Source: Botryobacter ruber (GTDB lineage: Bacteria > Bacteroidota > Bacteroidia > Cytophagales > Hymenobacteraceae). From it: DNA of 64,000 bases. Of the stretch, positions 11,194 through 45,787 are shown piece after piece (position 1 is the stretch's first letter; the number at the start of each line of letters is the position of its first letter). The stretch spans positions 1 through 64,000 of the forward strand of contig NZ_QCZK02000006.1 of the NCBI RefSeq assembly GCF_003347595.2, written 5' to 3'. The notes beneath the pieces are model-generated. The model was given only the letters and a program-made list of their open reading frames with translations. It had not been told where the DNA came from and searched no databases. A program made the position numbers and the translations under genes.

Positions 11194-11215
11194 GACTGAA
11201 AGGTATCGTAAAAAA

Positions 11216-13350: not shown

Positions 13351-14280
<930 letters not shown>

Positions 14281-14291
<11 letters not shown>

Positions 14292-17557: not shown

Positions 17558-17648
17558 AGTATCTTTTGTGTTAGGTTCTCTTCCATCCCAAGAAACGAAC
17601 TTATTTCTCTAACTTATAAACTGATGTTACTCATAAATCCATGCGAAC

Positions 17649-18034: not shown

Positions 18035-18072
18035 CTCCTATCGTAATTTTTTGTGTAACATCAGTTTAACAT

Positions 18073-20037: not shown

Positions 20038-20056
20038 TTGTGTTGTTCGTTAGAAA

Positions 20057-29118: not shown

Positions 29119-29161
29119 AATTGGAGCCATTTTCCAGCATCCCTTTTTGCTGTTTTAATTC

Positions 29162-29188
29162 TGCTGCACCTGCCACCACAGCCTCTGC
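29162..29188. repeat. 27-bp dispersed repeat, single arm
   Basis: Exact reverse complement of the left arm of the fold-back at 8458..8484 (ending CCACCACAGCCTCTGC). It lies 43 bp beyond the dienelactone hydrolase stop. Confidence 0.85.
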
Positions 29189-29248
29189 TGTTCATGTGTG
29201 AAAGCAGGTTGATACGATTCGGCCACATTTGACCGGAAGGCACTAAAA

Positions 29249-29286
29249 AAGCAGGCCTCCGAAACTTACGCTCCGGAGGCCTGCTT
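29249..29286 (-). terminator. intrinsic terminator of the FAS1/Sus operon
   Basis: Perfect 13-bp stem AAGCAGGCCTCCG/CGGAGGCCTGCTT with a 12-nt loop. On the minus strand it runs into TTTTTTAGTG, 24 bp after the SusD stop at 29311. Confidence 0.92.
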
Positions 29287-29310
29287 CAATATCAGGAAAA
29301 TCAGGAATGC

Positions 29311-31077
29311 CTACTCCCACTTAAAGGGAAGGAACCAGTTCTGTTTGTTCATCAGTTTTTGCCGGGCCTCCTCCGCTGCCGGGTCACCTTCTTTTACCAG
29401 TTTCTGGTATACCCTGTCTGCCAGGTAAGACGGGTCGTTTCTTCTCAAGGCAATCCGGACCAGGTCCTGCCAGCGGTTACCCTCGAAAGCCAGTTCCAGC
29501 GCAGCCTCTTCGATAATTTTATCTTCCATGTAATTTCTGAATTCCGGCTCTACGCCCTCTTTCAACGGCTTATCGAAGCGGGCCGGTTCAGACATATCAA
29601 AATAAGCAGCCGAATCTATCAGCGACAACTTCACATTCACCCGGTTTCTTAATCCTAAATTTCGATGGTATTTGCCCCGGTGGAATGGTGCGTCGAGTTT
29701 ACGGGCATCCAGGTCGTAAGGAAAATCCAGGAAAGTAGCCTGCTTTTCGTCTGCAGCTGTCGCATTCGGATTTTTATTGTAAGTAGCCTTGATCCCGTTG
29801 TTAATAAAAGCATAGGCTATTTTGTCGTGCCCTTCGCGGTTAGCAGCTTCCGAATAACGCAGGTGAAGCAGCGAAGCCCGGTACAACAGCCATTTGCCGT
29901 TTTTTTCCAGCAGGTTGGTTGGCACCCCGGTATTGGCATTCAGGTAGTTATAAAGGAATTTCATGACAACCGGTTGCCCGTTAATCACTTTATAAGAGTT
30001 GTTCTCGCCACGATAATCGTAGGGTGCATCGTTGGTCTGCGTTTGTGCCTGCCATTTTTCTATGGCCAGTTCAGATGGTTTTAACAGGTACTTTCCGCCG
30101 GTGTTCGAAAACAGCTCCACGAAAGGGTTCTGCGGCTTGAAATTCTTGTCAAAAAACATCGTCCATACCCACTCTGCCTGGTATTCCCGGTCGTTCTGGG
30201 AGCGCGACATAAACGTCTGCCAGGCCGATGCTGTAACGGCATCGTTGTCGGTGCCACTGGTGCCTATATAAGTGTTGTAGTATACATAACCAGCGCCGGC
30301 ACCCAGGGGTGTAGTTGTTTCGAGCACATTTTTATAGGCAATGGCTGCCTGGTGGTAATCGTTGCGGAACAAATGCAAATCGCCCAGCAAGGCATTTTTG
30401 TTTACAAACAGCATCTTGGTAGGATACCCGTCTATCTGCGCCACCATCGAACTGGAAGCCGGATACGGATCTTTGTAGGGAAGTGCCTCCATCTCCTCTA
30501 TAAGCTTCGACACAAGGCTCTCCAGCTTCAGGCGCGGATGTTTGGCTATGTTCTTTACCTCATCGATATTTTCTACTGGCTCAGTAATGTAGGGTACTTC
30601 ACCAAAGTGCAGGCCCAGTTGGAAGTACAGCCAGCTTCTTACCGCCACCAGGTCCGAATAACGGTGGTCGTATTCTGTTTTCGTGATCTTGCTGTTCTCC
30701 TGCATGATCTTCAGGTTCTTCAGCACATCGTTACAGTTCAGGATCACGCTGTAGAAATCCTTCGGATTAGCATAAGGATTTCCTTCGCTTACGTTATGAC
30801 TGTTTATTTCCCGCAGGTACACATCGGCATTGGAGGTTATGCTCATCAGGTCGGCCCGAAGCTCGTTCAGCACTTCGTACTGCCTGGCAACCGTCAGGAA
30901 CTGCCCGTACACACCCGTTACCGCTGCATCGGCATCGTAAATGTTCTGGTAATTGTTCGTATAATCTATGGCATTCTGAGGATCCAGATCAAATGCTTCC
31001 TTACAGGAAACAGCACCCGTAAGACCAACAGCAAGCGCCACGATCTGTAAAGATGTCTTTAATGTATTTCTTTTCAT
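29311..31077 (-). CDS. SusD/RagB family nutrient-binding lipoprotein
   Basis: A 588-residue SusD-like protein with lipoprotein signal (LAVGLTGAVSC). The N-terminal tetratricopeptide-like half (VTGVYGQFLTVARQYEVLNELRAD, VRSWLYFQLGLHFGEVPYIT) is followed by the C-terminal IIEEAALELAFEGNRWQDLVRIALRRND segment typical of the family. SusD proteins form the lid over their SusC pore at the outer membrane and bind the incoming ligand. It pairs with the SusC gene 15 bp upstream and is the last gene of the seven-gene FAS1/Sus operon, before a strong terminator. Ligand unknown; no glycosidase is encoded in the operon. Confidence 0.93.
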   Translation of the reverse strand: MKRNTLKTSLQIVALAVGLTGAVSCKEAFDLDPQNAIDYTNNYQNIYDADAAVTGVYGQFLTVARQYEVLNELRADLMSITSNADVYLREINSHNVSEGNPYANPKDFYSVILNCNDVLKNLKIMQENSKITKTEYDHRYSDLVAVRSWLYFQLGLHFGEVPYITEPVENIDEVKNIAKHPRLKLESLVSKLIEEMEALPYKDPYPASSSMVAQIDGYPTKMLFVNKNALLGDLHLFRNDYHQAAIAYKNVLETTTPLGAGAGYVYYNTYIGTSGTDNDAVTASAWQTFMSRSQNDREYQAEWVWTMFFDKNFKPQNPFVELFSNTGGKYLLKPSELAIEKWQAQTQTNDAPYDYRGENNSYKVINGQPVVMKFLYNYLNANTGVPTNLLEKNGKWLLYRASLLHLRYSEAANREGHDKIAYAFINNGIKATYNKNPNATAADEKQATFLDFPYDLDARKLDAPFHRGKYHRNLGLRNRVNVKLSLIDSAAYFDMSEPARFDKPLKEGVEPEFRNYMEDKIIEEAALELAFEGNRWQDLVRIALRRNDPSYLADRVYQKLVKEGDPAAEEARQKLMNKQNWFLPFKWE

Positions 31078-31092
31078 TTGACTAAAAGTAAA

Positions 31093-34000
31093 TTATAAAC
31101 CAAGGCGAACACCCACCATAAACGACTTATACAGTGGCTCCAGGCCCACATCAATGCCCTGTGCTACAGGACGGCTGGCCGCACTGAACTCCGGGTCGTA
31201 CCCGATGTAGCTGCTCCTGGTAAGTAAGTTGTTAGCGGAGGCATACACGGAAGTGCCTTTGATGAAGCCGGGCTTTACAGGAAGTTCATAGGCAACCGAA
31301 AGGGTTCTGAGCCTGATGTAGGAACCGTCCTCTATCCAGCGGTCGGAGAAACGGGCATTGCCGGCAGGGTCGCCGTAAGTTGCTCTCGGCATGTCGGTGT
31401 TCTGCCCGTCGAACTGCCAGCGGTTGTTCACAGAGCCCAGTTGGTTCTGAGTAGAGTTCATGGCTTCCAAGTTGGCTCGCACGCCGTTGTAGACATCGTT
31501 CCCGCTACGGAAAGTAACCAATGCATTTACCGAAAACCGTTTCCAGGACAGGTTGCTGCTGAAGCTTCCGTAAAAATCAGGGTTCGGATTGCCGATCACG
31601 GTTCTGTCGTTTTCGTCGATAATGTGGTCGTTGTTCAGATCCAGGAACTTCACATCACCGCCTCTGAACGGAATCAGGTCACCGTTTGGCGCTTTTGTTT
31701 TCAGGTTGGCCTGCGCCGCTTCTGCCTCAGTCGTGAAAATGCCGTCTGTTTTGTAGCCATATAACAGGTTGGCAGGTTGCCCGGCTTCTGAGAGTATGGT
31801 GGCTCCTGCAAAGTTAGTCAGCAGGCGGTTTCCGGGGATTTGGGTAAGCTCATTCCGGTAAGTAGACAGGTTCAGGCCCAGGTCGAGCTTCAGGTCACCG
31901 GTGTTTACCACTCTGCTGAACAAGCCAGCATTGATGCCGCTGTTCTTCATGCCGCCATTATTTGTCAGCATGTAATCTAAGCCTGTCTGTGCCGGCACGG
32001 GCTCGTACACCAGCATATCGGTTGTTCTGCTGTTGAATACATCCAGGCTGAGTGAAAGGCGCTCGTTGAGCACCGAAGCATCCAGCCCGAAGTTCAGCTT
32101 ACGGGTTGTCTCCCACATAATTTCCGGGTTGGCAATATTGCCTCTCCTGGTTCCCTGGGCGCCAAACAGGTTCTGGGTAATGTAGTATTGCTTGGCGGTA
32201 TAGTTGCCGATGTCGTCGTTACCGGTCAGGCCATAGCTCGCCCGCAGCTTAAGCAGGTTAACAGCACTGATACCAGCCATAAAATCTTCGGAAGAAATAA
32301 GCCAGGCAGCAGCAACGGAAGGCAACACAGCCAGTTTCATCCCATTCACGGAGAAAGCATCCGGTATGGCAGGACCAAACCTGGAGGATGCATCTACCGA
32401 CATATTAACGCTTAGCAGGTACTTGCTCAGCCAGCCATAGTCCGCGGAAACATAGGAATTTAACCACCTTGCTTCGCCCATATCGCCCGTAATATACCGC
32501 AGCGAATTCACACCTGTACCCAATGTTACAAAGTCGTCGCTCGGCGAGTTATAGCCGTACGATCTGTCTTCTTCACTTTTAATGTTGCTGAACCTAAAAC
32601 CAGCCCTGCCGGTAAAGCTATGTCCTCCGGACCAGTTCCTGTTGTAGGCATAGTAGGTATCGTTGAATAAAGAATTGTAGCGCTGCACGCGGTTACCCAA
32701 ACGGCTGTAGGCGATGGCGTTGTCCAGTTCTTCCGGCGCAACCCCCAGTCTAGGAATGAAGATGTCTTCCCGCACTTTATCGAAAGTAAGCCCGATCAGG
32801 GAGCTGATGGTGCTGTAAGTCGAAAGGGCATAGTTGAATTTGGCGGATCCGAAAAAGCGGTAATTCTGGTCCTGCCCCTGTGTACTGTTGATCAGCGCCG
32901 TTGGGTTGCTCCGGTTAAAGATGTCGGTATCGGCCAGGTTCGGTGACTCCACGCCTTCGTCGGTAACCTGCTGCACACGTAAGAAAGGTGCTTTTACCAG
33001 TGCAGCCAGTAGCGGGTTAGTGCCAAAATCGAGGCCCTGGTTGCGCAGGCTTTGCTGGTTTGAGGTAAACGAAAGGCTGGTGTTGCCGGTTAGCTTAGGG
33101 CTCAGGTTCAGGTCGGCATTAAAGCGGGTGCTGTACCTTTGCAGGCTTGTCTCTTTTGTAAGCCCCTGGTTCTCGAGGAAACCAACCGACAGCGCGTATT
33201 TAGCAATGTTATCACCACCGGTTACTTTCAGGTAATAGTTCTGGTTATAGCTGTTGCTCATAACCTCGCGCTGCCAGTCGGTGTTGGCGTGGTAGCGGGC
33301 ATATTCCGGGTTCGACGGATCGTCGTTCATGTAAGGCTGCGCCTGCAACTGGGCATCCGTCATGCCGCTGGTCCTGAGCAGGTCCGAGAGGTAAAGCCTG
33401 AAATCGCCGTTGTTGAGCACCGGCAGGTTTTTAGGTGCAAAATTCACACCTCCGTACGCAGCGAAATCTATTTTCGTAGCCAGTTCTTTGGCCCGTGAAG
33501 TAGAAATCAGGATGACGCCGTTTGCCCCTTTTGTGCCATACAACGAAGCGCCGTCTTTTATGATCGTGATGTTGTCGATGTCTTTGATATCGATATTGGA
33601 CAGCGGATTATTGCTATGCTCTTTGATGAGGGAACTACCGAAGGATTCGTGTTCATAGATCATCCCGTCTACGATGATGAGCGGTTTGTTACTGCCATAG
33701 AGCGAGTTGTACCCGTTTAACAGTATTTCTGCCCCCTGGCCCGGCGTTCCCGATTTCCGGATAACATCCACGCCGGCTGCCTTTCCCTGGAGGTAGCTAT
33801 CCGGAAATGCCATAGGGTTTTGCCAACTGCCTGCGGTGTTGATGGAGGTAACGGCATAAGGCACCTGGCTTTTCGCCCTGGCACCGGAAGGCAGCACGGC
33901 AGCCTCATAAACCGTGTTAAAGCTTTTCTCATGCAGCCCTACTACCACAACGTTCTCGCCCTTCAAAGCCACCTGCCTGGTCTGGAAATCAGGACTGGAT

Positions 34001-34296
34001 ACATGAAGCGTCGCTTTATAGGAAGGTACTTCTATGCTGAAATTGCCCTGTTCATCGGTAAAGGCAGCAGAATAGCCCGGCACACTGATGTTGATACCTG
34101 CTAAGGGTACTCCGGTGGCAGCATCTCTTACAGTACCTGTTGCTTTAATTCCTTTGTAACTAATGTTCTTCCTGACAGCAACAGCGTCTGCGCCGCTTCT
34201 CCCTTCTGTTGTCGTTTCCTGGGCCATTGCCGGCACAGTAATAACAACCAAACCGAGGAGCATCAGTCTTTTTATTGATCTGGTAACTATATACAT
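31093..34296 (-). CDS. SusC/RagA family TonB-dependent outer-membrane receptor
   Basis: A 1067-residue protein. Signal peptide LMLLGLVVITVPAMAQ, a carboxypeptidase-like regulatory (CNA-B type) domain at about 50-130 (KATGTVRDAATGVPLAGINIS), a plug domain (about 145-270; LIIVDGMIYE, IKDIDNITIIKDGASLYGTKGANGVILIST) and a 22-stranded barrel ending in a terminal strand (YKSFMVGVRLGL). It imports a SusD-bound ligand using TonB energy. It lies 36 bp after the second single-FAS1-type lipoprotein gene and 15 bp before its SusD. The plug motif is divergent from the second SusC in this operon, so the two pairs probably take different ligands. Confidence 0.95.
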   Translation of the reverse strand: MYIVTRSIKRLMLLGLVVITVPAMAQETTTEGRSGADAVAVRKNISYKGIKATGTVRDAATGVPLAGINISVPGYSAAFTDEQGNFSIEVPSYKATLHVSSPDFQTRQVALKGENVVVVGLHEKSFNTVYEAAVLPSGARAKSQVPYAVTSINTAGSWQNPMAFPDSYLQGKAAGVDVIRKSGTPGQGAEILLNGYNSLYGSNKPLIIVDGMIYEHESFGSSLIKEHSNNPLSNIDIKDIDNITIIKDGASLYGTKGANGVILISTSRAKELATKIDFAAYGGVNFAPKNLPVLNNGDFRLYLSDLLRTSGMTDAQLQAQPYMNDDPSNPEYARYHANTDWQREVMSNSYNQNYYLKVTGGDNIAKYALSVGFLENQGLTKETSLQRYSTRFNADLNLSPKLTGNTSLSFTSNQQSLRNQGLDFGTNPLLAALVKAPFLRVQQVTDEGVESPNLADTDIFNRSNPTALINSTQGQDQNYRFFGSAKFNYALSTYSTISSLIGLTFDKVREDIFIPRLGVAPEELDNAIAYSRLGNRVQRYNSLFNDTYYAYNRNWSGGHSFTGRAGFRFSNIKSEEDRSYGYNSPSDDFVTLGTGVNSLRYITGDMGEARWLNSYVSADYGWLSKYLLSVNMSVDASSRFGPAIPDAFSVNGMKLAVLPSVAAAWLISSEDFMAGISAVNLLKLRASYGLTGNDDIGNYTAKQYYITQNLFGAQGTRRGNIANPEIMWETTRKLNFGLDASVLNERLSLSLDVFNSRTTDMLVYEPVPAQTGLDYMLTNNGGMKNSGINAGLFSRVVNTGDLKLDLGLNLSTYRNELTQIPGNRLLTNFAGATILSEAGQPANLLYGYKTDGIFTTEAEAAQANLKTKAPNGDLIPFRGGDVKFLDLNNDHIIDENDRTVIGNPNPDFYGSFSSNLSWKRFSVNALVTFRSGNDVYNGVRANLEAMNSTQNQLGSVNNRWQFDGQNTDMPRATYGDPAGNARFSDRWIEDGSYIRLRTLSVAYELPVKPGFIKGTSVYASANNLLTRSSYIGYDPEFSAASRPVAQGIDVGLEPLYKSFMVGVRLGL

Positions 34297-34332
34297 GTTA
34301 ATAGGAATTGATATTTTGAATTGCTTTTCTCT

Positions 34333-35766
34333 TTATGGTAGCTGCGGAACAAGTTTAAAATAATCCAGGCTGATGGAATTCTGCCCGTCTACCCCGTTGT
34401 CAGCACCCACTATGTAGATATTCAGATCGCTCAGTTTATCGACAGTAAACTCCCCTACATATACTTCTTCAAAATTTTTAAGCGGCACGTCTGTCTCGGA
34501 GAACTGCGTTGACTTCGGATCGTTAACGGCAAACCGTTGTTTAAAAGCGATAGATTGCACATCGTTTGGCGCTACCCAGTACACTTTGTAGGTGCCACTG
34601 TACATGTTGGGCAACTGGTACCGCACATGGAACTGGTTTACCTTATGATTGAAGACATAGATGTCGTTGAAAAGCTCCTGCGTTTCCGGGTTCCGGCGCA
34701 GGCGGTAAGCAATGTTACCGGACTTATCGGTGCGGCTGAAGCCTGCCGGATGCTCCCCTTCCACCCGCACCGGAAGTATCTTCTCGGCCAGGCTAACATC
34801 TGCAGCGCTCATTACATACACAATCCCGTTGCTGGTAAAGTGATGGCTGATGATGGCATTCCGGTCAATGGGAATTTTCACGCCATCTTCGGAAGTAAGG
34901 TAGGCCGGCAGATTCTCCGGCGTATACAAACCTTTGAAGGCCAGGTCTTTTATAGCATACACAGAGGCTAACTTTTCTTCTTCCTCCGGAGTAGCTCCTT
35001 TTGTAAACGGTCTTATTTTTTCCCGCTCTGCCTCAATGGCAGCATCCGTCAACAGGATAAAAGTATACTCCTGGTCTTCATTAGCCAGGTTACCGGTTTT
35101 ATCGAACAGGAAGTTTTTCTCGATCTCTCCTGTTCCTTCTCTGTACTTTGGTTTACCGGTATCAGGATCTACGCCAATCTGCTCTGCTTTCGTCGGATCA
35201 AAAACAGTGTACTTCAGCCCCTGCATGTAATCCCGCTGTTTCCCGGAAATCGACATGACATAGTCCCACACATTCAGTTTGGGAATAAGTGCTTTGTCAA
35301 CAATGTGCAGCACACCATTGCCTACATACTGGTTCGCTTCCAGGATGGCAGCATCTTCCACAGTGGCGTTAGAAAACTTCAGGTATTTGCCATTGAGTGT
35401 TTTCAGCCGAAGCTCTGGTTTCGGGCTGTTGGTAAAGTAGCTCTGGTGAACGATGTGGTAGCCTACAAACTCCTTCAGCTTTGCCTCATCGTTCACAATG
35501 GCAGGATCCAGGTGCTCGAGCGCCTGGTTGGTTGGTGCCCACACCGTATACTTTTTAGAGGAAGCTATTTCCTGGTCATAGCCTGTTTGCTTCAGGAATT
35601 CGGCAAACCTGCTCAGGTTCTGATTGGCCTGTATTTTTTGGTACAGGTTACTGTTTAAAGTGGCGTCAGTTACTTTAGTGTATTCCTCAAACTTATCGTT
35701 ACAGCCCGAAAAACCAAACGCTGCCACACTAAAGCAAACGAGAAAAATTCTTGATTTAAAGTTCAT
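34333..35766 (-). CDS. FAS1 (fasciclin) domain lipoprotein
   Basis: A 477-residue protein with a lipoprotein signal (FLVCFSVAAFGFSGC). An N-terminal FAS1 domain at about 35-160 has SRFAEFLKQTGYDQEI, YTVWAPTNQALEHL and GNGVLHIVDKALIP, the conserved H1/H2-like boxes. A second, degenerate FAS1-like segment follows (about 170-335), then a beta-rich C-terminal domain (about 350-477; FHVRYQLPNMYSGTYKVYWVAP) resembling that of the preceding FAS1 protein. FAS1 domains mediate adhesion or ligand binding at the cell surface. It lies between another FAS1 gene (59 bp upstream) and a SusC gene (36 bp downstream). A surface accessory subunit of the SusCD complex is likely but unproven. Confidence 0.88.
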   Translation of the reverse strand: MNFKSRIFLVCFSVAAFGFSGCNDKFEEYTKVTDATLNSNLYQKIQANQNLSRFAEFLKQTGYDQEIASSKKYTVWAPTNQALEHLDPAIVNDEAKLKEFVGYHIVHQSYFTNSPKPELRLKTLNGKYLKFSNATVEDAAILEANQYVGNGVLHIVDKALIPKLNVWDYVMSISGKQRDYMQGLKYTVFDPTKAEQIGVDPDTGKPKYREGTGEIEKNFLFDKTGNLANEDQEYTFILLTDAAIEAEREKIRPFTKGATPEEEEKLASVYAIKDLAFKGLYTPENLPAYLTSEDGVKIPIDRNAIISHHFTSNGIVYVMSAADVSLAEKILPVRVEGEHPAGFSRTDKSGNIAYRLRRNPETQELFNDIYVFNHKVNQFHVRYQLPNMYSGTYKVYWVAPNDVQSIAFKQRFAVNDPKSTQFSETDVPLKNFEEVYVGEFTVDKLSDLNIYIVGADNGVDGQNSISLDYFKLVPQLP

Positions 35767-35825
35767 TTTGTTCCGGTTTTTAGAGCGTTAACCCCAGTGG
35801 CTGAGGCTAACGCTGTATTCATCTT

Positions 35826-37601
35826 TTAAGGTTTAGGAACAATGGTTCCATCCGGGTTAAACTTAGGCCATAACTGGTCTTCGCCCTCCGGGATAAAGTG
35901 TATCATGTCGAACTGCACATCGCCGCTGCCTTCCCAAACTGCATCCATGCGCAGTACATGACGGTCGGTTTTCTCCACGTCAATGGTTCCGGCCAGCAGC
36001 GCATAGTTCTGGCTACCGTGGTATTCAATAAATAATTCCGGGTTGTTGTAGAAAGGAACACGATACTCCGGTTCAGGTCGTCCGCCAAACGGTGATTTTA
36101 TACCTAAGGCTTCCAGCGATTCCGGAGTCACTCCTTCCGGATAGGTATAGGTGTCACCCACCAACCGCATGCCCGCTAACTGCTCATTAAATTTCAGGAT
36201 ACGTGGAAGCGGTTTGCCATTGAAGGATACCAGTACACCACCACCGCCTTTACGCCTGATAAAGGAAATCCATACTTTGTAACGTCCTTTCACCAGCAGA
36301 GGGGTCTTGAATTCAATCCAGCTGTTAGCTGCCACATTGGTTCGGAGCGCCGGGAAGAACAAGTAATCATTATGATACACATAAAACTGGCGTGCTTCTG
36401 GTGCAACCCTGTACTGCACATCCCCCATCTGCCAGTTTACATCCTGCAGATCGCCAGGTTTGAATTTAGGGCTGCTTGTGTTCATTTTTCTGAAGTTTGC
36501 CAGCTTGGTGATCTCGGGCTGATCGGTCACTTCCCAGAAAACAGCAATCGGAAACCGTACTTTAATGGCATAAGGATCTTTCATGGTGTGCAGCACTCCA
36601 TTTACAGCTGTAATGTCGCTGGATTCCCGTTTGATCTCAGAACCTGGCTCATGCTTACCATTGAAAGAATCATCATTTACCAGGATGGTAGTTCCATTTA
36701 GTTTGATCGTAATTACATCCAGTGGCGAGAGCGTGTTATGCGATGTCGCTTTAAATATTTCGGGCAGGTACTTCAAGCCTGGCAGAATATGATAGCCCAC
36801 GTACAGGTTCAGACTGTCGGATGCCGACTTCGGATCACCGGTGTTTGAATACTTAGCTTTCAGATCGTTGAAGGAATTGATACCTGCTGCCTTCAGTACC
36901 GTGTTTGACTCTACCATAACCGTATGAAACATTTTGGACGAGTCGCTCAGGTCTTTGGGCAGGATGTTCAGGTATTCGTAATAACCGGTTTCTTTCAGTG
37001 CCTGGCTGAAAACAGAGTATTCCGGGTTAGCCTCGATCATCTGGGCCAGCGTCTGCCTGGATGGCTTCAGCACATTGTCGATAACATGGATAATACCGTT
37101 ACCCACCCTGATGTCGGCCTGTTCCAGCAAAGCCTGCCTGTTGATAAGCCGTTTGGTGTTGCCATCGTTGTTCTGCGCTCCGGTAATGATGTACTGGCCG
37201 AACATAGTGGCTGTACGCAACTTGCCATCGTTGAATTCCCTGGAGGGAATGGTATCGCGGATAAGGTGAAATTTCACCAGTTCTTCCAGCTCCGGAATAC
37301 TGATATCGCTTACCGAAGCTTTTCCCTGCTCCTTCAGATAAGCTTCAATGGCTGTGTTGGTAGGCACAAATACGGTATAAGTACCGTACCCGCCTAACGA
37401 GCCTTCTGCTTTTGTTAAGGACAGAATTTTTGAAAAATGAGAAAAGGTGGCCGGATCTTTCTGCAGGTATTCCGATATGTTTACATCAGAAGTTGTGTAG
37501 ATATCAAACTCCTCCTTTTGGCAGGATGTAAATGTAATGATCAGCAGCAGCACTCCGACGAGTGGGGCCAACCAGTTTTTAGGAGAACTCATTTTTTCCA
37601 T
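35826..37601 (-). CDS. FAS1 (fasciclin) domain lipoprotein, two FAS1 domains
   Basis: A 591-residue protein with lipoprotein signal (LVGVLLLIITFTSC). FAS1 domain 1 (about 40-185) has FSHFSKILSLTKAEGSLG, YTVFVPTNTAIEAYL and GNGIIHVIDNVLKP. FAS1 domain 2 (about 190-350) has YSVFSQALKETGYYEYLN and VNGVLHTMKDPYAI. The C-terminal region (about 370-591; SWIEFKTPLLVKGRYKVWISF) is beta-rich and resembles that of the next gene, suggesting tandem duplication and divergence. It lies 31 bp after the first SusD gene and 59 bp before the next FAS1 gene. Location is the cell surface or periplasm; ligand unknown. Confidence 0.9.
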   Translation of the reverse strand: MEKMSSPKNWLAPLVGVLLLIITFTSCQKEEFDIYTTSDVNISEYLQKDPATFSHFSKILSLTKAEGSLGGYGTYTVFVPTNTAIEAYLKEQGKASVSDISIPELEELVKFHLIRDTIPSREFNDGKLRTATMFGQYIITGAQNNDGNTKRLINRQALLEQADIRVGNGIIHVIDNVLKPSRQTLAQMIEANPEYSVFSQALKETGYYEYLNILPKDLSDSSKMFHTVMVESNTVLKAAGINSFNDLKAKYSNTGDPKSASDSLNLYVGYHILPGLKYLPEIFKATSHNTLSPLDVITIKLNGTTILVNDDSFNGKHEPGSEIKRESSDITAVNGVLHTMKDPYAIKVRFPIAVFWEVTDQPEITKLANFRKMNTSSPKFKPGDLQDVNWQMGDVQYRVAPEARQFYVYHNDYLFFPALRTNVAANSWIEFKTPLLVKGRYKVWISFIRRKGGGGVLVSFNGKPLPRILKFNEQLAGMRLVGDTYTYPEGVTPESLEALGIKSPFGGRPEPEYRVPFYNNPELFIEYHGSQNYALLAGTIDVEKTDRHVLRMDAVWEGSGDVQFDMIHFIPEGEDQLWPKFNPDGTIVPKP

Positions 37602-37632
37602 ATCCTACTATATTGATTAATTTAGTTTTTGA

Positions 37633-39117
37633 TTATTGATAAAAAGGATTTTGAACCAGTTTCTTGTTGGTGGCGAGTTCGTAGAAGTATACTGGCAGGT
37701 AATGACTGTTCTTATCGCGGAGCTTGGTAATGGCAGACTGCTGGAACTCCAACTGCGCTGTATTTGCTACAATATTCAATAGCAGATCACTTCGTTCGTA
37801 GTTGTTTCTTCTGGCATTGCGCAACAGGTCATACCACCGCTTGCCTTCGTAGGCAAACTCCCGCGCTCTTTCGGCCAGTATGTAATCTGTTATGCCGTTT
37901 TTGTCGTCAGGTTCTACCACCTGGGCTGTTTCAGGCAATGCATTTGCCCTTGTTCTGATTATCTCAATGATGTCAAGCGCCTCCTGCCCCTGACCCAACT
38001 CATTCAGAGCTTCCGCTTTCATCAGTAAGATATCGGCATAGCGGTACACCATGAAGTTACCGTAAGAGGCAGCCGATGACCGCGCTGTACCGGAGTTTAC
38101 ACCCAGGTATTTCCAGATGCTGCCATCATTTAATTTAAAAGCAGCGCCATCGCCCCGAATGTCTTTTTCAATTATTTCTTCCGGATTAGAGGCAAAAATT
38201 TCTTCTCTAGCTAACAGCGAAGCCCCGAAGCGCCGGGACACGGAAGGCGAGAACATGCTGTAAAAGGGGTTCAGCCTGTTTATGTTGAAGTAGACTTCGA
38301 AAATACTCTCGCTGGACCCGCCTTCGTAGAAAATGGTTGGGAACCAGTTATTGTCTCCTACAACTAAGCCATACTGGCCGGAGTTTATTACTTTGTTACA
38401 TTCGGCTATGCTGCTCTGGTAATCGTTCTGCCACAGGTACACATCGGCAAGCATGGCATTTACGGCATATTTGGTAATTCTGCCCTTGTTCAGCTCATTT
38501 TTGCCATAGTTGGTTTGCACATACTGCTCGGCTTGCTTCAGGTCGGTCACCACCTGGTTCAGCACATCCTGCTGCGAGCTTTTCGGTAGCTGCACTTCGT
38601 CTTTATCGCTGGCAGTTGGCTCCAGCTTGAGCGGCACATCACCAAACGTGCGGGCCAGGTAGAAGTACATCAAAGCCCGGAGTGCCATCGCTTCGCCAAT
38701 GTAGCCATTAAGGGCTGCCTGCGTGAAAGTATTGTCGTTCCGGAGCACCTCCGGTGCAAACTTGATCACGTTGTTGCAGTAGTTAATCGTGGTATAAACG
38801 GCAGCCCAGTTCGAGAGAGGGTTGGTTGACTCAATGTTCACATTGATAATATCGAGTTCCTGGCGCCTGATGCCTGATCGCGCCTCCAGCATATCTGCCC
38901 GCAATTCTCCCCACAGAAACAGGTTTTCCACAAGCGGCGGGGCAAGCAACGAGGCATAACAGCCGTTTACGGCAGCCGCCACCTGTTCCTTGGTTTGCCA
39001 GAACTCCTGCCGCACCACGCCATCCTTAGGTTTAAGGTCGAGGTATTTGTCACAGGATGTAGTAGTCAGTAATAACAGTGCTGAAAGAACTAAAATATAT
39101 GTTGTATTTCTGGTCAT
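37633..39117 (-). CDS. SusD/RagB family nutrient-binding lipoprotein
   Basis: A 494-residue SusD-like protein with lipoprotein signal (LSALLLLTTTSC). Family segments: FWQTKEQVAAAVNGCYASLL near the N-terminus, ALRALMYFYLARTFGDVPL in the TPR part, YRYADILLMKAEALNELGQ and LAERAREFAYEGKRWYDLLR near the C-terminus. It partners the SusC gene 18 bp upstream. Middle gene of the operon 44607 to 29311; a two-domain FAS1 gene follows after 31 bp. Typical length for the family. Ligand unknown. Confidence 0.94.
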   Translation of the reverse strand: MTRNTTYILVLSALLLLTTTSCDKYLDLKPKDGVVRQEFWQTKEQVAAAVNGCYASLLAPPLVENLFLWGELRADMLEARSGIRRQELDIINVNIESTNPLSNWAAVYTTINYCNNVIKFAPEVLRNDNTFTQAALNGYIGEAMALRALMYFYLARTFGDVPLKLEPTASDKDEVQLPKSSQQDVLNQVVTDLKQAEQYVQTNYGKNELNKGRITKYAVNAMLADVYLWQNDYQSSIAECNKVINSGQYGLVVGDNNWFPTIFYEGGSSESIFEVYFNINRLNPFYSMFSPSVSRRFGASLLAREEIFASNPEEIIEKDIRGDGAAFKLNDGSIWKYLGVNSGTARSSAASYGNFMVYRYADILLMKAEALNELGQGQEALDIIEIIRTRANALPETAQVVEPDDKNGITDYILAERAREFAYEGKRWYDLLRNARRNNYERSDLLLNIVANTAQLEFQQSAITKLRDKNSHYLPVYFYELATNKKLVQNPFYQ

Positions 39118-39135
39118 GGTATGGATTGCTTAATT

Positions 39136-42100
39136 TTAGAAACCTACAGAAAAGCCCAAAACAATATTTTTGGTTGGAGGCGTCATGGAATTGTCAATGG
39201 CAACTCTGAATGGATCCGTTCCCCTGGTAGATACTTCCGGGTCCTGGCCTGTGTAGTTGGTGAAGGTGAGCAGGTTCTCTGCTGTTACATACACGCTGGC
39301 ATTCTTCATTTTTATTTTGCTCAGCGCATTTTTACCTAAAGCATAGCGGGCTGTTAGAGCTCTTAACCTTACAAAGGATGCATCTTCTACATAGCGGTCG
39401 GAGCCCAGCCAGTTGTAGCCACTGTTCCAGAGCGCACGTGGCATATCGGTCTGATCGCCAGGGTTTCTCCAGCGCCGCAGCACGGCAGTGCTTTGGTTAT
39501 CATAACCATACATGTTGGTGGTGTTCATTTGTGTACCATTCACAATCTGGTATTTCGTTCTGAAGCTGAAGAAAGCTGTAAGTTTAAGTCTTGACTTGTA
39601 GGTGATGGTTGGTCCGAAACCACCAATGAATTTAGGGTTGCCATTGCCCAGGTACACCACATCGCGGTAATCGATGTTGCCATCATGGTTAATATCTTCA
39701 TACATGGCATCACCCGGCTGGAAGATATAGTCTGTGTATGGATAGTTAAACCGCATAAAGAGCGGCTCTCCATCCAGACCTACAATAGCGTTGCCGTCTT
39801 TATCGCGCGCTACGGTTGCTTCAGCATCGGAGTAAACACCTTTGTAGCGGTAACCGAAGAAAGACCCAAACGGTGTATTTTCCTGCAGGAAGGATTTATA
39901 CTGGCCATTGGCAGCTGAATTACCTTTTTCGCGTGGGTAAAACTCTGATATTTCGCGGATGATGTTCACGTTCCTGGAAATATTGAAGTTCAGGTCCACG
40001 GTCCAGTCCTTTGTTTTGATGGGTGTGCCCTGAATGTTCACTTCCCAGCCCTGGTTGTCCATGGTACCCACGTTCATGTTAATGGAGCTGTAACCGGAAA
40101 TGCCTGGCAACTGCAGATCCGGGAAGTACAGGTCTGTTGTTCTCATGCGGTAGAAATCAACATCCACATCAAACCTGTTTTTGAACATGATCAGGTTAAA
40201 CCCGGCGTTGTGTCCGGTAACTGTTTCCCACCGTAGCGTAGACAGCTCCATGTTCTGCGGGTACACGGCAGGACCACCAATGTAGTCCCAGTCGTAGTTT
40301 CCGTAGACGCTGTAGAAGGAATAGTTATTGCGAGGAGCACGTCCGCTTTGCCCGAAACTGGCCCGTAAGCTCAGGTCGTTGATAAACCCAAACTGCTGCA
40401 TAAAAGGCTCACCTGATACTCTCCAGCGGGTAGAAAGCGAAGGGAAAGCGGCATAACGGTTGTCAGGACCAAACTTGGAATTACCATCGCCGCGCAAGGC
40501 AGCGTTAAAGATATAGCGGTCCAGGTAGCTGTACTGCACATTACCAAGCAGCGCCACACTACGGCCATGGGAATAACCGGAGCTCATGCCCTGGATACGG
40601 GCAGCCGCTGAAGGATCCTGCAGAAATGCCGAAGCTGAGTTAGAAGACTGCAACTGTACGCTGCTTACCTTGTTATCGTCCGACAGGAAAGACACCAAAC
40701 CAATCAGGCTATGGTTTTCACCCAGCTTTGGCGTGTAAATCAGGTTTGTTTTGGTCTGGATACCGAAGCGGTCCACATCCCCGTCATAGGCGCGGTTTAC
40801 CACTGTTTCACTCATTGGTCTGCCCGTTGCCAGCTGCGGCAGGAAAGTGCTGCTCTTCGTGTTGTCAATATCAAACTGCACGTCAAAAGTGGTGCGGAGC
40901 AGGTCGGGCACAATGTCGTACTGCAGGTTGAATTTAGGGATAATCCGCTCGCTGCGCACATTGTTTATACCCATTGTCAGCAAAGCCAGCGGGTTGTAGG
41001 TACGCGGGTATTCGCCCTGGATATTGCGGAGCGGGGATAAGTACAAACCGGTGTTGTTGCCTTGCAGATCGTACTCATACACGCTCATATTCGGCATTTT
41101 ATCGTAGGCAATGCTGCGCGCGTTGTTGCTGTAATTACGATCGGTATCCGTGTTTGTATAGGCAATGTCTGTTCTGAATCGTAGCCTGCTCGACACATCG
41201 TAATCCAGGTTAATGCGGGTTGAAATCCTGCTTAAACCTGTGCCTAAAGTAGTACCGGTTTCATCCAGGTAGCCAACCGAAGCATAGTACCGTGCTTTTT
41301 CACCACCACCCGACAACGAAAGGTTATGGTCGTGCTTATAACCGGTCTGGGTAATCAGGTCGAGCCAGTCGGTATTCGTGCCGTAGTTGTAGTAGTAATA
41401 AGGATCACTGATATCGTACAGGAATTCCTTTACTTGCTCGGTATTTAGAGGTGCACCATTACGGTTCATCACCGCCTCCGGAATCAGCATGGAGAATTGG
41501 TCGCCGGTCAGCATCGGGATGGGCTGTGGCTGTTTTGCCATGGTACCCCTGAAGGTATAGGTTACAGCAGGCTTTCCTACACGTCCGCGCTTGGTGGTAA
41601 TTAACAACACCCCGTTGGAAGCTCTGGATCCCCACACCGCCGTAGCAGCCGCATCTTTCAATACAGCAATTTCCATGATATCGGAAGGTGCAATGTTCAA
41701 AAGCGTGGCGTAGCCCTGGTCGTCGGCGGTACCGAAGTTAAAGTCTGAGGGAATTTCTGTTTCGAAGGGCATGCCATCCACCACGATCAAAGGGTCTGAT
41801 GAACCGTTGATGGTAGACGTACCCCGAATCCTGATCTGCATGCCGGCACCCGGGTCACCGGAATTTGCCGCGATGTCTACACCGGGAAGGCGTCCCTGGA
41901 TAGCCTGGTCGATGGAGCTGGAAGACATTTCCTCAAGTTCGCGGGCATCGATTTTAGCAACACTCACCGTGGAACTCCGTTTCTCCACTTCCATCAGGCC
42001 GTTACTGGAGGTCTGGCGGGCCACCACCACTACTTCCTGCAGTTGGTTGGCCGAAGATTCCAACTTAAAATTGAAAACTGTTCGGCCGCCTATCTCCTGA

Positions 42101-42390
42101 ACAATCTTTTTATAACCGATAAATGACACCGCTAGCTTGTTAGCCGGGTTTGCCACTTTCAGCACAAAATTTCCGTCCAGGTCTGTGTTGGCGCCATTTA
42201 CAATTCGACCTTCTTTGTCGATTTCCGTAACAACAGCGCCAATAATGGTTATGCCGCTTTCCTTGTCTGAAACATTTCCTTTAATGGTTTTGCCCACGCC
42301 GGTGTTCTGTGCATAAGAACCAAAGTTCAGCAACAGCAGCAACGCAACAGCAAGACTACCATAAAAAGGAAGTTGTATTAATCTCTTCAT
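39136..42390 (-). CDS. SusC/RagA family TonB-dependent outer-membrane receptor
   Basis: A 1084-residue receptor. Signal peptide (LAVALLLLLNFGSYAQ), CNA-B/carboxypeptidase-like domain (about 35-110; IKGNVSDKESGITIIGAVV), plug (about 120-250; MQIRIRGTSTINGSSDPLIV, AVLKDAAATAVWGSRASNG) and barrel ending VLGFSVGF with aromatic C-terminus. It transports the ligand captured by the SusD 18 bp downstream. It follows the four-FAS1-domain lipoprotein gene by 21 bp, so a FAS1 protein precedes each SusCD pair in this operon. No ECF sigma or anti-sigma gene is next to it. Confidence 0.95.
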   Translation of the reverse strand: MKRLIQLPFYGSLAVALLLLLNFGSYAQNTGVGKTIKGNVSDKESGITIIGAVVTEIDKEGRIVNGANTDLDGNFVLKVANPANKLAVSFIGYKKIVQEIGGRTVFNFKLESSANQLQEVVVVARQTSSNGLMEVEKRSSTVSVAKIDARELEEMSSSSIDQAIQGRLPGVDIAANSGDPGAGMQIRIRGTSTINGSSDPLIVVDGMPFETEIPSDFNFGTADDQGYATLLNIAPSDIMEIAVLKDAAATAVWGSRASNGVLLITTKRGRVGKPAVTYTFRGTMAKQPQPIPMLTGDQFSMLIPEAVMNRNGAPLNTEQVKEFLYDISDPYYYYNYGTNTDWLDLITQTGYKHDHNLSLSGGGEKARYYASVGYLDETGTTLGTGLSRISTRINLDYDVSSRLRFRTDIAYTNTDTDRNYSNNARSIAYDKMPNMSVYEYDLQGNNTGLYLSPLRNIQGEYPRTYNPLALLTMGINNVRSERIIPKFNLQYDIVPDLLRTTFDVQFDIDNTKSSTFLPQLATGRPMSETVVNRAYDGDVDRFGIQTKTNLIYTPKLGENHSLIGLVSFLSDDNKVSSVQLQSSNSASAFLQDPSAAARIQGMSSGYSHGRSVALLGNVQYSYLDRYIFNAALRGDGNSKFGPDNRYAAFPSLSTRWRVSGEPFMQQFGFINDLSLRASFGQSGRAPRNNYSFYSVYGNYDWDYIGGPAVYPQNMELSTLRWETVTGHNAGFNLIMFKNRFDVDVDFYRMRTTDLYFPDLQLPGISGYSSINMNVGTMDNQGWEVNIQGTPIKTKDWTVDLNFNISRNVNIIREISEFYPREKGNSAANGQYKSFLQENTPFGSFFGYRYKGVYSDAEATVARDKDGNAIVGLDGEPLFMRFNYPYTDYIFQPGDAMYEDINHDGNIDYRDVVYLGNGNPKFIGGFGPTITYKSRLKLTAFFSFRTKYQIVNGTQMNTTNMYGYDNQSTAVLRRWRNPGDQTDMPRALWNSGYNWLGSDRYVEDASFVRLRALTARYALGKNALSKIKMKNASVYVTAENLLTFTNYTGQDPEVSTRGTDPFRVAIDNSMTPPTKNIVLGFSVGF

Positions 42391-42411
42391 AATCTGGTAT
42401 TGATTCTAGTA

Positions 42412-44607
42412 TTACTTGGTATCAAATCTCAAAAAGTCATCAAGCAAATGGATTACAGCACGGTTGGATACATTATTGCTGCTGGCCGTGATAACACGGG
42501 CCGTGCCGCCTTTCATATCCCGGACAGTCATGCTGCCCGGTGTGTTTGTTACAGCTACCATGGTTGCCTCACCATTCTCTTTATCTAAAATGGTAAGATA
42601 CCCACCCTCTTTTTTACCGTCAGCCGCAACAGCTGCTTTGCTGATGATGTGATACCTGATAAAATTGGCAACTTTCTCTTTATCTTCATTTTCCGAAGGA
42701 TTGGTAGCGGCAGGCAGGTAACCTTCTGCAACAGCGGCATCGATGGCCGCATTATCCGGAGCGAGCAGGGTATAGAACGAGCCATCTGCCACTCCCAGAA
42801 GCGCACCTGTGGCAGGTGTGTAGATAGCAGCGTTGCTCAGGTAATCATAAAACTTTTTGTATGGAGAATCCGGCTGTTCTGCGAGTTTTTTCAGGTGCAG
42901 CCCCATAGCCTGTTGCGGGTCCAGGAACAGCTGATCGACATAGTACACGGTTCCGTTGGAGGTAACTTTCTGGTTAGAAGCTCCGGGCGCCATATCTTTT
43001 TCCAGGTTTCCGGCAGAGAAAACAGAATTCTGACTGAACCGGATATATTCGCCGTTGTACGTCTCGATAACACCGTTACCGGTTGTCACGTTGGTAAAAT
43101 CGCCGAGAGCCACATGCGCATTGATAATGCGGTTAAGTTTATCCCAGGCACTTGTTCCGGTAAGCTTAGCGCCACCGCCCGGAGGAGTATATTCCCACCT
43201 GTTGGCATCCAGGTTGTAATCAAATCCTGCTGCTTTCACTACCTCGTCAGAAGCCAGGAAAACAGTAAATTTAATGCTGGTGTTGATCAGGATCGGCTTG
43301 AGTGCTACCGTCAGGGCGCGTGTCATTAAGGAATACTTCGGATCAAGGTACACTTTCCCAAAAACGGAACTGAACACATTGGCTTCCTGCACTTTGCTGG
43401 TACCATAGAACATACCGTTGCTCAGTACCTTTTTGTCTACCACATCTGTTTCCGGGTTGAACAAAGCTCCTTGTCCAAAGCTGTTATGCGTGCTCTGGAA
43501 CTTGCTCGGCCACACCGTCATGTTCCACATGTGGGCATTTAGAAAGTCGTAGATGATCTGCTTTGGCACATCGTCGAGCGTTGGATAATGCTCGAGCAAT
43601 ACATTCTTCAGGTAAGCATCCAGGGCTTCGTTGGTAGGGGCAAAAAGCGTGTACCCTTCCTGCTGCCCGTCATTGTCCTCAAACTTCAGGTAGTTTTCGT
43701 TGTTGGGCGAATACATGAGCCCGGCATCGTACACCTTCACATAAACGTTGTTGCTGCCGCCGTTTATGAGATTATACTTTTCGGTTGCCGGCGCATTTAC
43801 CAGGTACGACACCATGTACTTCTCAAAGATGGATCTGAACTTGCTGTATCGGTTCTGCGAAGCAAGGTACTTGTCAAGATTCGGAAGAGGCGTAATTACC
43901 TTGTCTAGTTCATGCACAACCCCGTTTTCTGCAATGATATCCCAGGTCACTATTTTTGCGCCACCCACATTAAAACCGGTAAAGGGTGTGTTCGGGTAGA
44001 AATAATTGTAGTCGTAGGCGGTAAGGCCCCTGGCGTTGAAATACTTGTTCAGGAAATACGGGATGTACTTGTTATTATTATCGTTTACATTATAGTAATC
44101 GCTGCCGGACCTGTTGTTTCTGTTTGAAGCAACTACCAGATTTTCAGCGCCATTTATATTTTCCCGCTGAACACCCTCATAGTAAGCAGTTCGCCGCTTA
44201 TAAGCCTGGTTAGATTTCCAGCCTAATCCAGACTGGTAATCGGCCAGCCTGTCAGTTTTGAAAGCATTGTAAACCATGGCATACTTCACAATTTTTTCTG
44301 CTGTAGCAGCGTCCATAGCCTCTACACCAGCAATGCCGGCGTCTTGAAAGTATAATTGAAAAGCCTCGTCGTTTGGCGCAAAAATGGTCCAGTAGCCGGC
44401 TTTGCTTAAAACATCCTTATAGCCTGCCTTGTCTACACAGGCCAGGAAGCTTTTAAAATTTCCTTTTGCCTGCAACACCTGGTAAACAGGTTCTTCCAAG
44501 GTTTCAGGACGTTCATAAAATTCTTTGAATTCTTTCTTTTCACAACCTGCCACAACAAATAGCAGCAGCAGAAGACTTAAAGAATTCCGTAAAAGGTTGC
44601 ACATCAT
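42412..44607 (-). CDS. FAS1 lipoprotein with four fasciclin domains
   Basis: A 731-residue lipoprotein (LLLLLFVVAGC). Four FAS1-like units can be traced: about 35-250 (NFKSFLACVDKAGYKDVLS, ENGVVHELDKVITP), 255-425 (YTLFAPTNEALDAYL, NGMFYGTSKV), 430-575 (KFTVFLASDEVVKAAGF, SNGTVYYVDQLFL) and 585-731 (FYTLLAPDNAAIDAAV, VSNRAVIHLLDDFLRF). The first two have long insertions. First gene of the seven-gene FAS1/Sus operon; the 826-bp region upstream should hold the promoter, but no clear TAnnTTTG box was found on this strand. Probable surface ligand-binding or adhesive protein working with the SusCD pairs. Confidence 0.9.
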   Translation of the reverse strand: MMCNLLRNSLSLLLLLFVVAGCEKKEFKEFYERPETLEEPVYQVLQAKGNFKSFLACVDKAGYKDVLSKAGYWTIFAPNDEAFQLYFQDAGIAGVEAMDAATAEKIVKYAMVYNAFKTDRLADYQSGLGWKSNQAYKRRTAYYEGVQRENINGAENLVVASNRNNRSGSDYYNVNDNNNKYIPYFLNKYFNARGLTAYDYNYFYPNTPFTGFNVGGAKIVTWDIIAENGVVHELDKVITPLPNLDKYLASQNRYSKFRSIFEKYMVSYLVNAPATEKYNLINGGSNNVYVKVYDAGLMYSPNNENYLKFEDNDGQQEGYTLFAPTNEALDAYLKNVLLEHYPTLDDVPKQIIYDFLNAHMWNMTVWPSKFQSTHNSFGQGALFNPETDVVDKKVLSNGMFYGTSKVQEANVFSSVFGKVYLDPKYSLMTRALTVALKPILINTSIKFTVFLASDEVVKAAGFDYNLDANRWEYTPPGGGAKLTGTSAWDKLNRIINAHVALGDFTNVTTGNGVIETYNGEYIRFSQNSVFSAGNLEKDMAPGASNQKVTSNGTVYYVDQLFLDPQQAMGLHLKKLAEQPDSPYKKFYDYLSNAAIYTPATGALLGVADGSFYTLLAPDNAAIDAAVAEGYLPAATNPSENEDKEKVANFIRYHIISKAAVAADGKKEGGYLTILDKENGEATMVAVTNTPGSMTVRDMKGGTARVITASSNNVSNRAVIHLLDDFLRFDTK

Positions 44608-45381
44608 ATTAATTGCGTAAATTTTATTATAAAAAACATTCTAAAAGCAACGATATTTTTCCGGCACCCGGTAACACTACCGGCACAGCTTGCGCCAGGG
44701 CAGTCAGTAATCTGATTGACTAAAAAAGGGTATTGCAGGACACGACGCACAACTGAAGGGTTGCCTTCAGCTGGCAGAGGAGAATACAAAGAGAGCGTAA
44801 TTATTTCTTCATATAGTTTAATTTTAATTAACTATTCAGTTCTTTACAGCCGAAGTCTTACAGATGACCAACTTAGGTCAAGCAATGGATGAACGCCCGC
44901 TCCACCAGTTCCGGAAGCGCTCTTCACCCAAACTCTGCTTTAAGACATAGGCTGCATAAGCAAAAAATTTAAAACTAATGTTAGTAAGGAAAGAAATAAA
45001 AAAATACTACTGCCTGGCTCAAAAGCGCTATCGTTTGCACTATCGGAAATAAAAAAAAGCCAGGGCAGCTGTAGTATGTAAAAAAGATAAACTTGAATGG
45101 CTAAATGTAGAAAAGTAATTTTTTTCCGGCATCCTGTGGTATCCTGCCAATAAACCTGCTACACCGTTAATCATTCCAAAAAGCGCAAAAGAACCAGAAA
45201 CTTCAGTGTCGTAACTTTTACATATTAATATATTTTTTGGCGGCAGCGCTGCCAATACCTTTTCGCCTTCAAAAATTAATCTGCAACAAGGCAAATGAAC
45301 TTGTTTCAGGCGGCCTCCTCGCTTCTTTACAAGAATTAATATTTTTTTTCACCAACAGTTACTATCTAAAAAATATTTACA
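44608..45381. other. long AT-rich intergenic region between the FAS1/Sus operon and rplS
   Basis: No convincing gene. Reading frames of 61 and 84 codons on the minus strand lack any recognisable feature. There are small inverted repeats: CTGAAGG/CCTTCAG at 44753..44770, GGCAGCGCTGCC at 45242..45253, and a loose pair ATACTAC/GTAGTAT at 45004 and 45071. Both flanking transcription units must start here. Confidence 0.5.
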
Positions 45382-45389
45382 TATCTTTG
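45382..45389 (+). promoter_or_regulatory. -7 box of the rplS promoter
   Basis: TATCTTTG, a perfect TAnnTTTG match, 44 bp before the rplS ATG in strongly AT-rich DNA. No clear TTTG lies at the -33 position. Confidence 0.7.
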
Positions 45390-45433
45390 CAGTCCGAAAT
45401 TTCAAGAAGATATTTAGCTTTAAGAACATAGCC

Positions 45434-45787
45434 ATGAGCGAACTATTAAATTTTATTGAGCAGGAATCAACCGAGAAGCGTGCTTCTTTCCCTAACTTCC
45501 AGGCAGGCGACACAATCAATATTCACGTTAAAATCCGTGAGGGAAACAAAGAGCGTATCCAGCAGTTCCAGGGCGTTGTAATCCAGCGTAAAAACATAAA
45601 TACAAACGGCGAAACTTTCACAGTACGTAAAGTTTCTAATCAGATTGGCTTAGAGCGTATCTTCCCGCTTCTTTCTCCAAGCATCGAGAAAATCGAGCTG
45701 ATCAGAAGAGGCCGTGTTAGAAGAGCAAGACTTTACTACCTGCGTGGTCTGCAAGGTAAAGCTGCCAGAATCAAAGAAAGAAGATAA
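45434..45787 (+). CDS. rplS: 50S ribosomal protein L19
   Basis: A 117-residue protein, full length for bacterial L19. Diagnostic segments are [55 protein letters not shown] and the basic tail [28 protein letters not shown]19 sits at the 30S-50S interface. Here it is monocistronic: its own promoter (45382) and terminator (45822..45856) are visible, unlike the trmD-rplS arrangement of proteobacteria. A standard housekeeping gene that separates the accessory region on its left from core genes on its right. Confidence 0.98.

Follow-up and report, generated by a model that had tools for sequence, protein, structure and literature searches.

A conserved block of FAS1 lipoprotein genes and two SusC-SusD pairs in Botryobacter ruber is predicted to bind or import pectic oligosaccharides

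Organization of the FAS1-SusCD operon

The window analyzed here is a 64,000-nt stretch of the Botryobacter ruber genome (contig NZ_QCZK02000006.1, positions 1–64,000), and the subject of this report is a block of seven minus-strand open reading frames (ORFs) within it, at positions 29311–44607, in the order FAS1-SusC-SusD-FAS1-FAS1-SusC-SusD. The intergenic gaps are 15, 36, 59, 31, 18, and 21 bp in order of coordinate, and an intrinsic terminator closes the operon on the same strand at 29248–29287. This hairpin, followed by a T run, scored −34.9 kcal/mol (z −7.6), and none of 200 shuffled sequences was as good; it was absent from the output of a simple pattern scan. An earlier note on this DNA had described gaps of 15–59 bp, the same gene order, and one strong terminator, all of which were confirmed. 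We infer that the seven genes are co-transcribed. According to the ORF list, a long intergenic region of 826 bases (44608–45433, minus strand) lies upstream of gene 1 and should hold the operon promoter or leader; the divergent ORF starting at 45434 looks by eye like rplS. There was no Rfam match in 29000–45600, promoter-like sites in 28900–45500 were at the chance level (17 found versus 21.1 expected), and upstream of gene 1 there was no full Bacteroidota −33/−7 pattern, only three −7-like fragments.

Genes 2 and 6 encode SusC-type TonB-dependent transporters. Gene 2 (39136–42390; 1084 aa) has Plug, CarbopepD_reg_2, and TonB barrel domains in Pfam, and its sequence matches solved SusC homologs, such as 8aa4. 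In gene 6 (31093–34296; 1067 aa), Plug and CarbopepD_reg_2 exceeded the Pfam cutoff, and the barrel was recognized only through the 28% full-length identity to gene 2. Gene 3 (37633–39117; 494 aa) and gene 7 (29311–31077; 588 aa) are SusD-type lipoprotein genes according to Pfam and lie directly behind a SusC gene, at distances of 18 and 15 bp, respectively; the sequence matches of gene 7 to solved SusD proteins were marginal. The SusC domain set and a SusD gene directly after SusC, as expected for SusCD uptake, were thus both found. Because the two SusC proteins share only 28% identity and the two SusD proteins only 25%, the pairs are two different transporters rather than a recent duplication, in line with the two SusCD systems noted earlier.

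The remaining three genes encode FAS1 lipoproteins, with Fasciclin scores of 80–129 bits against a Pfam cutoff of 22. Gene 1 (42412–44607; 731 aa) matched Fasciclin only, in five stretches, which we read as approximately four domains, the first probably split by an insertion; the earlier note also gave four. Gene 4 (35826–37601; 591 aa) showed two Fasciclin stretches and a sub-cutoff DUF5108 match, and gene 5 (34333–35766; 477 aa) showed one Fasciclin stretch.

Conservation of the seven-gene unit

The source genome carries the whole operon a second time, on contig C51, with 43–59% identity per gene. One scan with gene 4 as the query, run over contigs of bacterial genomes, yielded 42 named loci, 41 of which carry genes 1–7 in the same order and on the same strand; the exception, L072, shows genes 2–6 and is cut off by its contig on either side, and L095, which is among the 41, has some broken ORFs that look frameshifted. 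We take the 42 loci to span Cytophagia, Chitinophagia, Sphingobacteriia, Flavobacteriia, and Bacteroidia, the class having been looked up for Pontibacter beigongshangensis and Paradesertivirga (P. mongoliensis). In a sample of the phylum, 13 of 395 genomes matched, including the source genome, and all eight full-length copies from seven other genomes kept the same gene order (one of the eight probably comes from a genome already among the 42 named loci). When 291 genomes of the order were searched, gene 4 (full length), gene 7 (E 1e-40), and gene 2 (E 1e-200; two candidates scored per genome) occurred in exactly the same six genomes, including the source, among the matches listed. The gene order, which recurs in every full-length copy seen of the operon family, is beyond chance. 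The earlier note had proposed a single linked unit and had asked whether relatives might have FAS1 genes unlinked from SusCD; the order was fixed in the second copy, in the 41 named loci, which have all seven genes, and in the eight phylum copies, so the proposal held.

The closest relative found was the copy of P. beigongshangensis, with 70–82% identity per gene (82% for gene 4). Five other genomes of the same genus in the 291-genome search lacked the operon, and gene 4 shared 66% identity with a protein of Paradesertivirga, which NCBI assigns to Sphingobacteriia; together, these observations hint at horizontal spread of the operon. Several gene 4 matches were found in single genomes, namely four in Paradesertivirga (G324) and three in Niastella (G316), which suggests that multiple copies are tuned to different fragments.

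Pectin and rhamnose genes around the operon in relatives

To characterize the surroundings of the operon family, the flanks of 47 copies in 37 genomes, with a maximum of 14 kb per side, were compared with 20-kb regions around 39 SusD genes from 18 operon-bearing genomes; these control genes were chosen manually, at rough intervals among the top-scoring PF07980 matches, rather than at random. Several flanks of the 47 copies ended at contig ends, and for G305, one side was covered. The 47 copies were taken apart from the two copies of the source genome, those of G228 and G196, the wide loci L049–L054, and L072. Neighbor families were found by clustering and by family scans of representatives. 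The recurrent neighbors were PL11 rhamnogalacturonan lyase, GH28, GH88/105, GH106, GH115, GH2, GH43, a CE12-like esterase, pectate-lyase-like and PL22-like proteins, and the rhamnose catabolism genes RhaD, RhaI, and a kinase. Some of these labels should be read with their scores: PL22-like was assigned from a faint match (E 3e-4), CE12-like from matches to rhamnogalacturonan acetylesterase and YxiM, and the FGGY kinase scored far below the rhamnulokinase cutoff, with RhaI strong but below its own cutoffs.

In 39 of the 47 copies, the 7.5 kb beyond either end of the operon contained at least one pectin or rhamnose gene (PL11, GH28, GH88/105, CE12-like, GH106, PL1-like, PL22-like, RhaD, or RhaI), compared with only 2 of the 39 control SusD regions, both of which owe it to a PL1-like gene. 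When only the core pectinases were counted, the figure was 36/47 within the same distance. Among the loci outside this set, pectinases were shown by all three of Fibrella, Fibrivirga, and Belliella calami (L049–L054), the G228 copy had a CE12-like and a GH2 gene nearby, and the G196 copy had GH2 only. The link of the operon family to pectin is therefore well supported by its neighborhood. A non-glycan ligand, as suggested in the earlier note, is not supported: it was rejected as the first guess on these neighbor genes, and the carbohydrate-binding module (CBM)-like folds described below also speak against it.

Anchors and modeled folds of the FAS1 proteins

Genes 1, 4, and 5 look like additional lipoproteins of the operon. 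A cysteine at the lipobox position was invariant in all aligned sequences: Cys27 of gene 4 and Cys22 of gene 5 (41 sequences each, covering 39 of the 42 named loci) and Cys22 of gene 1 (21 sequences, covering 19 of the 42). A crude lipobox pattern matched between 32/39 and 39/41 of the sequences, and we relied instead on the invariant cysteines. The FAS1 proteins may be exposed at the cell surface.

The proteins of genes 4 and 5 were modeled, with a mean predicted local distance difference test score (pLDDT) of 86 and 91, respectively. In both models, the FAS1 parts matched periostin and TGFBIp best, with Z scores against the FAS1 domain 2vxp of 19.2 (gene 4) and 21.2 (gene 5), and residues 32–325 of the gene 5 model aligned to a two-FAS1 stretch of periostin. 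Both proteins are therefore modeled with two FAS1 domains, followed by a C-terminal beta-sandwich, CBM35-like in gene 4 and CBM6/35/36-like in gene 5. The C-terminus of gene 5 scored Z 13.8 to CBM6 2cdp and 12.4 to CBM35 2w47, and that of gene 4 scored 13.6 to 7ehg and 10.0 to 2w47, the latter structure having been solved with delta-4,5-anhydrogalacturonic acid, a galacturonate-derived ligand. The two C-termini thus appear to share a CBM6/35/36-like fold, less clearly in gene 4. Because a CBM-like sandwich follows the FAS1 pair in the models, glycan capture is the simplest role of genes 4 and 5, in which the FAS1 pairs may act as a spacer, a scaffold, or a second binding surface. The slot directly behind SusD is the usual place of surface glycan-binding proteins, and FAS1 lipoproteins occupy it here, probably with a glycan as the ligand.

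The two copies of the source genome and their surroundings

Linked carbohydrate-active enzymes, a mark of a complete polysaccharide utilization locus (PUL), accompany the operon in most relatives; at the window copy, only a DUF4450/GH116-like gene (Pfam; 22731–26450, minus strand) was found, 2.9 kb downstream on the same strand and separated from the operon by three plus-strand ORFs. The earlier statement that there is no glycosidase, sulfatase, or regulator stands for the interior of the operon, with this gene nearby. Its best match among the fetched loci, with 50% identity, was the DUF4450 gene downstream of the Paradesertivirga copy whose gene 4 is 66% identical. DUF4450 occurred within 12 kb of 5 of the 47 copies and in 0 of the 39 control regions, and Paradesertivirga, Fibrella, and Fibrivirga, relatives that have pectinases nearby, also carry it behind the operon in the same orientation. 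The gene in the window is possibly a remnant of an ancestral cluster. No linked regulator lies directly beside the window copy, the nearest noted being an AraC-type gene at 15633. At the P. beigongshangensis copy, the gene immediately upstream is GH88/105, followed by GH31, and approximately 11 kb away is a gene that resembles pectate lyase.

The lack of linked enzymes is a trait of the window copy that the C51 copy shares out to a distance of 7.5 kb; kinase, RhaI, and RhaD genes lie 9–15 kb downstream of the C51 copy on the opposite strand. Elsewhere, the source genome gave 13 GH88/105, 15 GH28, and 9 RGL11 matches, some of them weak or fragments of a single gene. On its upstream side, the C51 copy has a GntR-type regulator with a periplasmic-binding-protein-like domain (L009:6587–7609), which is a candidate for the control of C51-type copies. 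Its relatives (in L104, L106, L137, L180, and L182) accompany some operon copies or rhamnose genes and also occur in 2 of the 39 control regions. Downstream of the C51 copy, at L010:4990–8100, is a very long, repetitive, surface-like protein that runs off the end of the locus and resembles an adhesin by eye.

Two further gene groups were noted elsewhere in the window, both on the minus strand. At 8553–15207 is an Ebo cluster, with an EboA-domain gene (14281), EboC (12442), and EboE (9919) recognized through NCBIfam, a 3-dehydroquinate-synthase-like gene at 11216, and genes at 13350 and 8553 that had no match and are presumably EboB/EboF by position. At 620–7955 and 16784–21910 are two 3-keto-disaccharide-hydrolase (DUF1080) genes, a ThuA/DUF7133/cupredoxin protein, a Gfo/Idh oxidoreductase, and a sugar-isomerase-like gene, which may form a 3-keto-glycoside degradation neighborhood adjoining the Ebo cluster.

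A divergent six-gene block and other FAS1 loci

A six-gene version, FAS1-SusC-SusD-FAS1-SusC-SusD, was found in two genomes of the same GTDB class (L251 in G589 and L252 in G332), with best matches to the window operon of 22–35% identity. Compared with the seven-gene operon, it has no second inner FAS1 gene, and its last SusD is closer to gene 3 than to gene 7. The SusD-FAS1-SusC core of this block was present in all nine matching genomes of 300, with approximately 1.5 kb viewed on each side. BNR sialidase-like genes adjoin the block in both L251 and L252, and in L251 only, genes for an N-acetylneuraminate epimerase, a dihydrodipicolinate synthase (DHDPS)-family (NanA-like) lyase, a major facilitator superfamily transporter, and a sulfatase are nearby. 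Because the six-gene block adjoins sialidase-like and sialic acid genes, FAS1-SusCD blocks may serve at least two acidic-glycan diets and may represent a broader design for acidic glycans.

Among the weaker FAS1 relatives (L253–L262), a SusC-like neighbor was detected by blast in one of ten, L262. Six of these loci, L256–L261, form a separate FAS1 neighborhood in Bacteroidota, in which FAS1 proteins of approximately 589–617 aa stand beside an ORF of approximately 336–357 aa, with no SusCD match.

Proposed function and alternative explanations

Taken together, the neighborhood and the folds lead us to consider it likely that the operon is the outer-membrane capture-and-import part of a pectin utilization system, in which the FAS1 proteins hold the substrate, the two SusCD pairs import it, and the enzymes are encoded elsewhere. 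The surface-anchored FAS1 lipoproteins of genes 1, 4, and 5 would capture and retain pectic polysaccharide or pieces of it, with genes 4 and 5 probably using the CBM-like C-terminal domains beside their paired FAS1 domains. The SusC-SusD pairs (genes 2–3 and 6–7) would then bind acidic oligosaccharides and import them, powered by TonB, and the two pairs may take two classes of fragments, for example, rhamnogalacturonan and homogalacturonan oligosaccharides. Pectinases to produce and finish these fragments lie beside the operon in most relatives but on other contigs in the source genome.

Several points weigh against this interpretation. The Fisher p value for the contrast between copies and controls (4e-14) is optimistic, since the families were chosen after the flanks had been viewed. 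Because of this, an unlabeled split-half check was run, in which neighbor families learned from half of the genomes recurred at a mean of 84% of the held-out copies (63%–100%, 50 splits) and 35% of the controls (15%–51%), a smaller contrast. The control regions also carry GH2 (6/39) and hybrid two-component system (HTCS) genes (11/39). Moreover, 8 of the 47 copies had none of the counted genes within 12 kb: G302, G304, G314 (esterase-type genes only), G317 (nothing classified), two copies of G316, G324_C2, and G325, some of which have GH2 or HTCS genes. No GH28, GH88/105, or RGL11 match was found on the 77.8-kb contig that holds the window (C56) or on C51, and the substrate of the window copy is therefore read from its relatives. 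Pectin neighbors are in any case no proof that the FAS1 proteins bind pectin. Similarly, a common fold is no proof of function, and CBM6/35/36-type domains bind many glycans; the C-terminus of gene 4 is the less specific of the two, as the non-CBM sandwich Cry2Aa (1i5p) scored Z 10.1, level with CBM35. Finally, the six-gene version has a different neighborhood, that of sialic acid.

A more far-reaching version of the same idea is that, in Bacteroidota, FAS1 lipoproteins form an unrecognized class of acidic-glycan surface receptors, that the block has been tuned at least twice (to pectin and to sialic acid), and that the FAS1 domain itself contributes to binding the chain, as suggested for the plant protein AtFLA4 and rhamnogalacturonan-I; we regard this as possible but less likely than not.

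Somewhat less probable, in our estimation, is that the SusCD pairs import pectic oligosaccharides and the FAS1 proteins bind no glycan, serving as adhesins or scaffolds that keep cells on plant material or arrange the outer-membrane complex through protein-protein contact. A review (PMC6032426) presents FAS1 domains as best known for adhesion and interaction. The structural matches of the FAS1 parts to periostin and TGFBIp, and the fact that gene 1 matches nothing but Fasciclin in Pfam, fit such a role; the CBM-like C-terminal domains in the models of genes 4 and 5 do not. Free adhesins would also need no fixed operon with two SusCD pairs, such as that seen in 41 of the 42 named loci, and the slot after SusD, as noted above, usually belongs to a surface glycan-binding protein.

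It is less probable still that the window copy switched to another acidic glycan or to a non-glycan ligand after losing its enzyme neighbors, while its relatives remained pectin systems. The absence of GH28, GH88/105, and RGL11 matches on C56 would agree with a switch, as would the Ebo and 3-keto-disaccharide-hydrolase genes in the window, and the six-gene operon near sialic acid genes implies that the design can change its substrate. However, the P. beigongshangensis copy, with its 82% identical gene 4, adjoins GH88/105, a DUF4450 gene still follows the window copy in the same orientation, an arrangement shared by three relatives that have pectinases close by, and the source genome is rich in genes of pectinase families.

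Lastly, a coincidence, in which FAS1 genes lie near SusCD by chance and the seven genes are no functional unit, was rejected and is extremely improbable: SusD genes are indeed abundant (19 to 74 matches per genome in 18 genomes, among the matches listed) and the source genome has 17 FAS1 domain matches, but the same order recurs in relatives, genes 2, 4, and 7 are present and absent together in the 291 genomes (among the matches listed), and FAS1 relatives outside the operon family mostly stand without SusCD (L262 alone of L253–L262).

If the proposed capture-and-import role of the operon is true, a group of bacterial FAS1 lipoproteins would gain a function, and it would become clear why seven surface genes stay together across distant lineages of pectin-degrading Bacteroidota. 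The block could also serve as a marker that helps to predict the use of pectin or sialic acid in genomes and metagenomes, even when the enzymes are unlinked. Bacterial FAS1 proteins could furthermore address a question about the plant cell wall, namely, whether FAS1 domains bind pectin directly; the plant protein AtFLA4 has been proposed to interact, perhaps, with galactan side chains of rhamnogalacturonan-I (PMC6032426).

Comparison with known systems

Among the open-license papers of PubMed Central (PMC), none was found to combine fasciclin with pectin and either SusD or TonB, or with both rhamnogalacturonan and Bacteroidetes, and none to combine beta-Ig-H3 with Bacteroidetes and polysaccharide. 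In the available part of PMC10199937, FAS1 is taken as an adhesion gene and SusCD pairs are reported from the same symbiont, with the link between them left unstated, and the available part of PMC3870299 mentions neither SusC nor GntR.

The operon family shares with Sus-like PULs the tandem SusC-SusD genes, the lipoprotein genes directly after SusD, the enzymes for a single polysaccharide that adjoin the operon in most relatives, and, at some copies, an adjacent regulator of the GntR or hybrid two-component type. It differs from them in that FAS1 lipoproteins occupy the surface-protein slots, that its two SusCD pairs are locked together with three FAS1 genes in a single fixed block, and that the window copy has neither a linked regulator nor a linked pectinase of the families searched. 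The neighbors of the relatives (PL11, GH28, GH88/105, CE12-like esterase, GH106, GH2, GH43, GH115, and the rhamnose catabolism genes) are also those of Bacteroidota pectin and rhamnogalacturonan-I PULs, a comparison made apart from the pectin PULs of B. thetaiotaomicron. With periostin, TGFBIp, and the plant protein AtFLA4, the operon proteins share the FAS1 fold and tandem FAS1 pairs; however, they are bacterial lipoproteins tied to TonB-dependent transporters, and genes 4 and 5 add CBM-like C-terminal domains. The six-gene operon has a similar FAS1-SusCD order, with sialidase-like genes as its neighbors.

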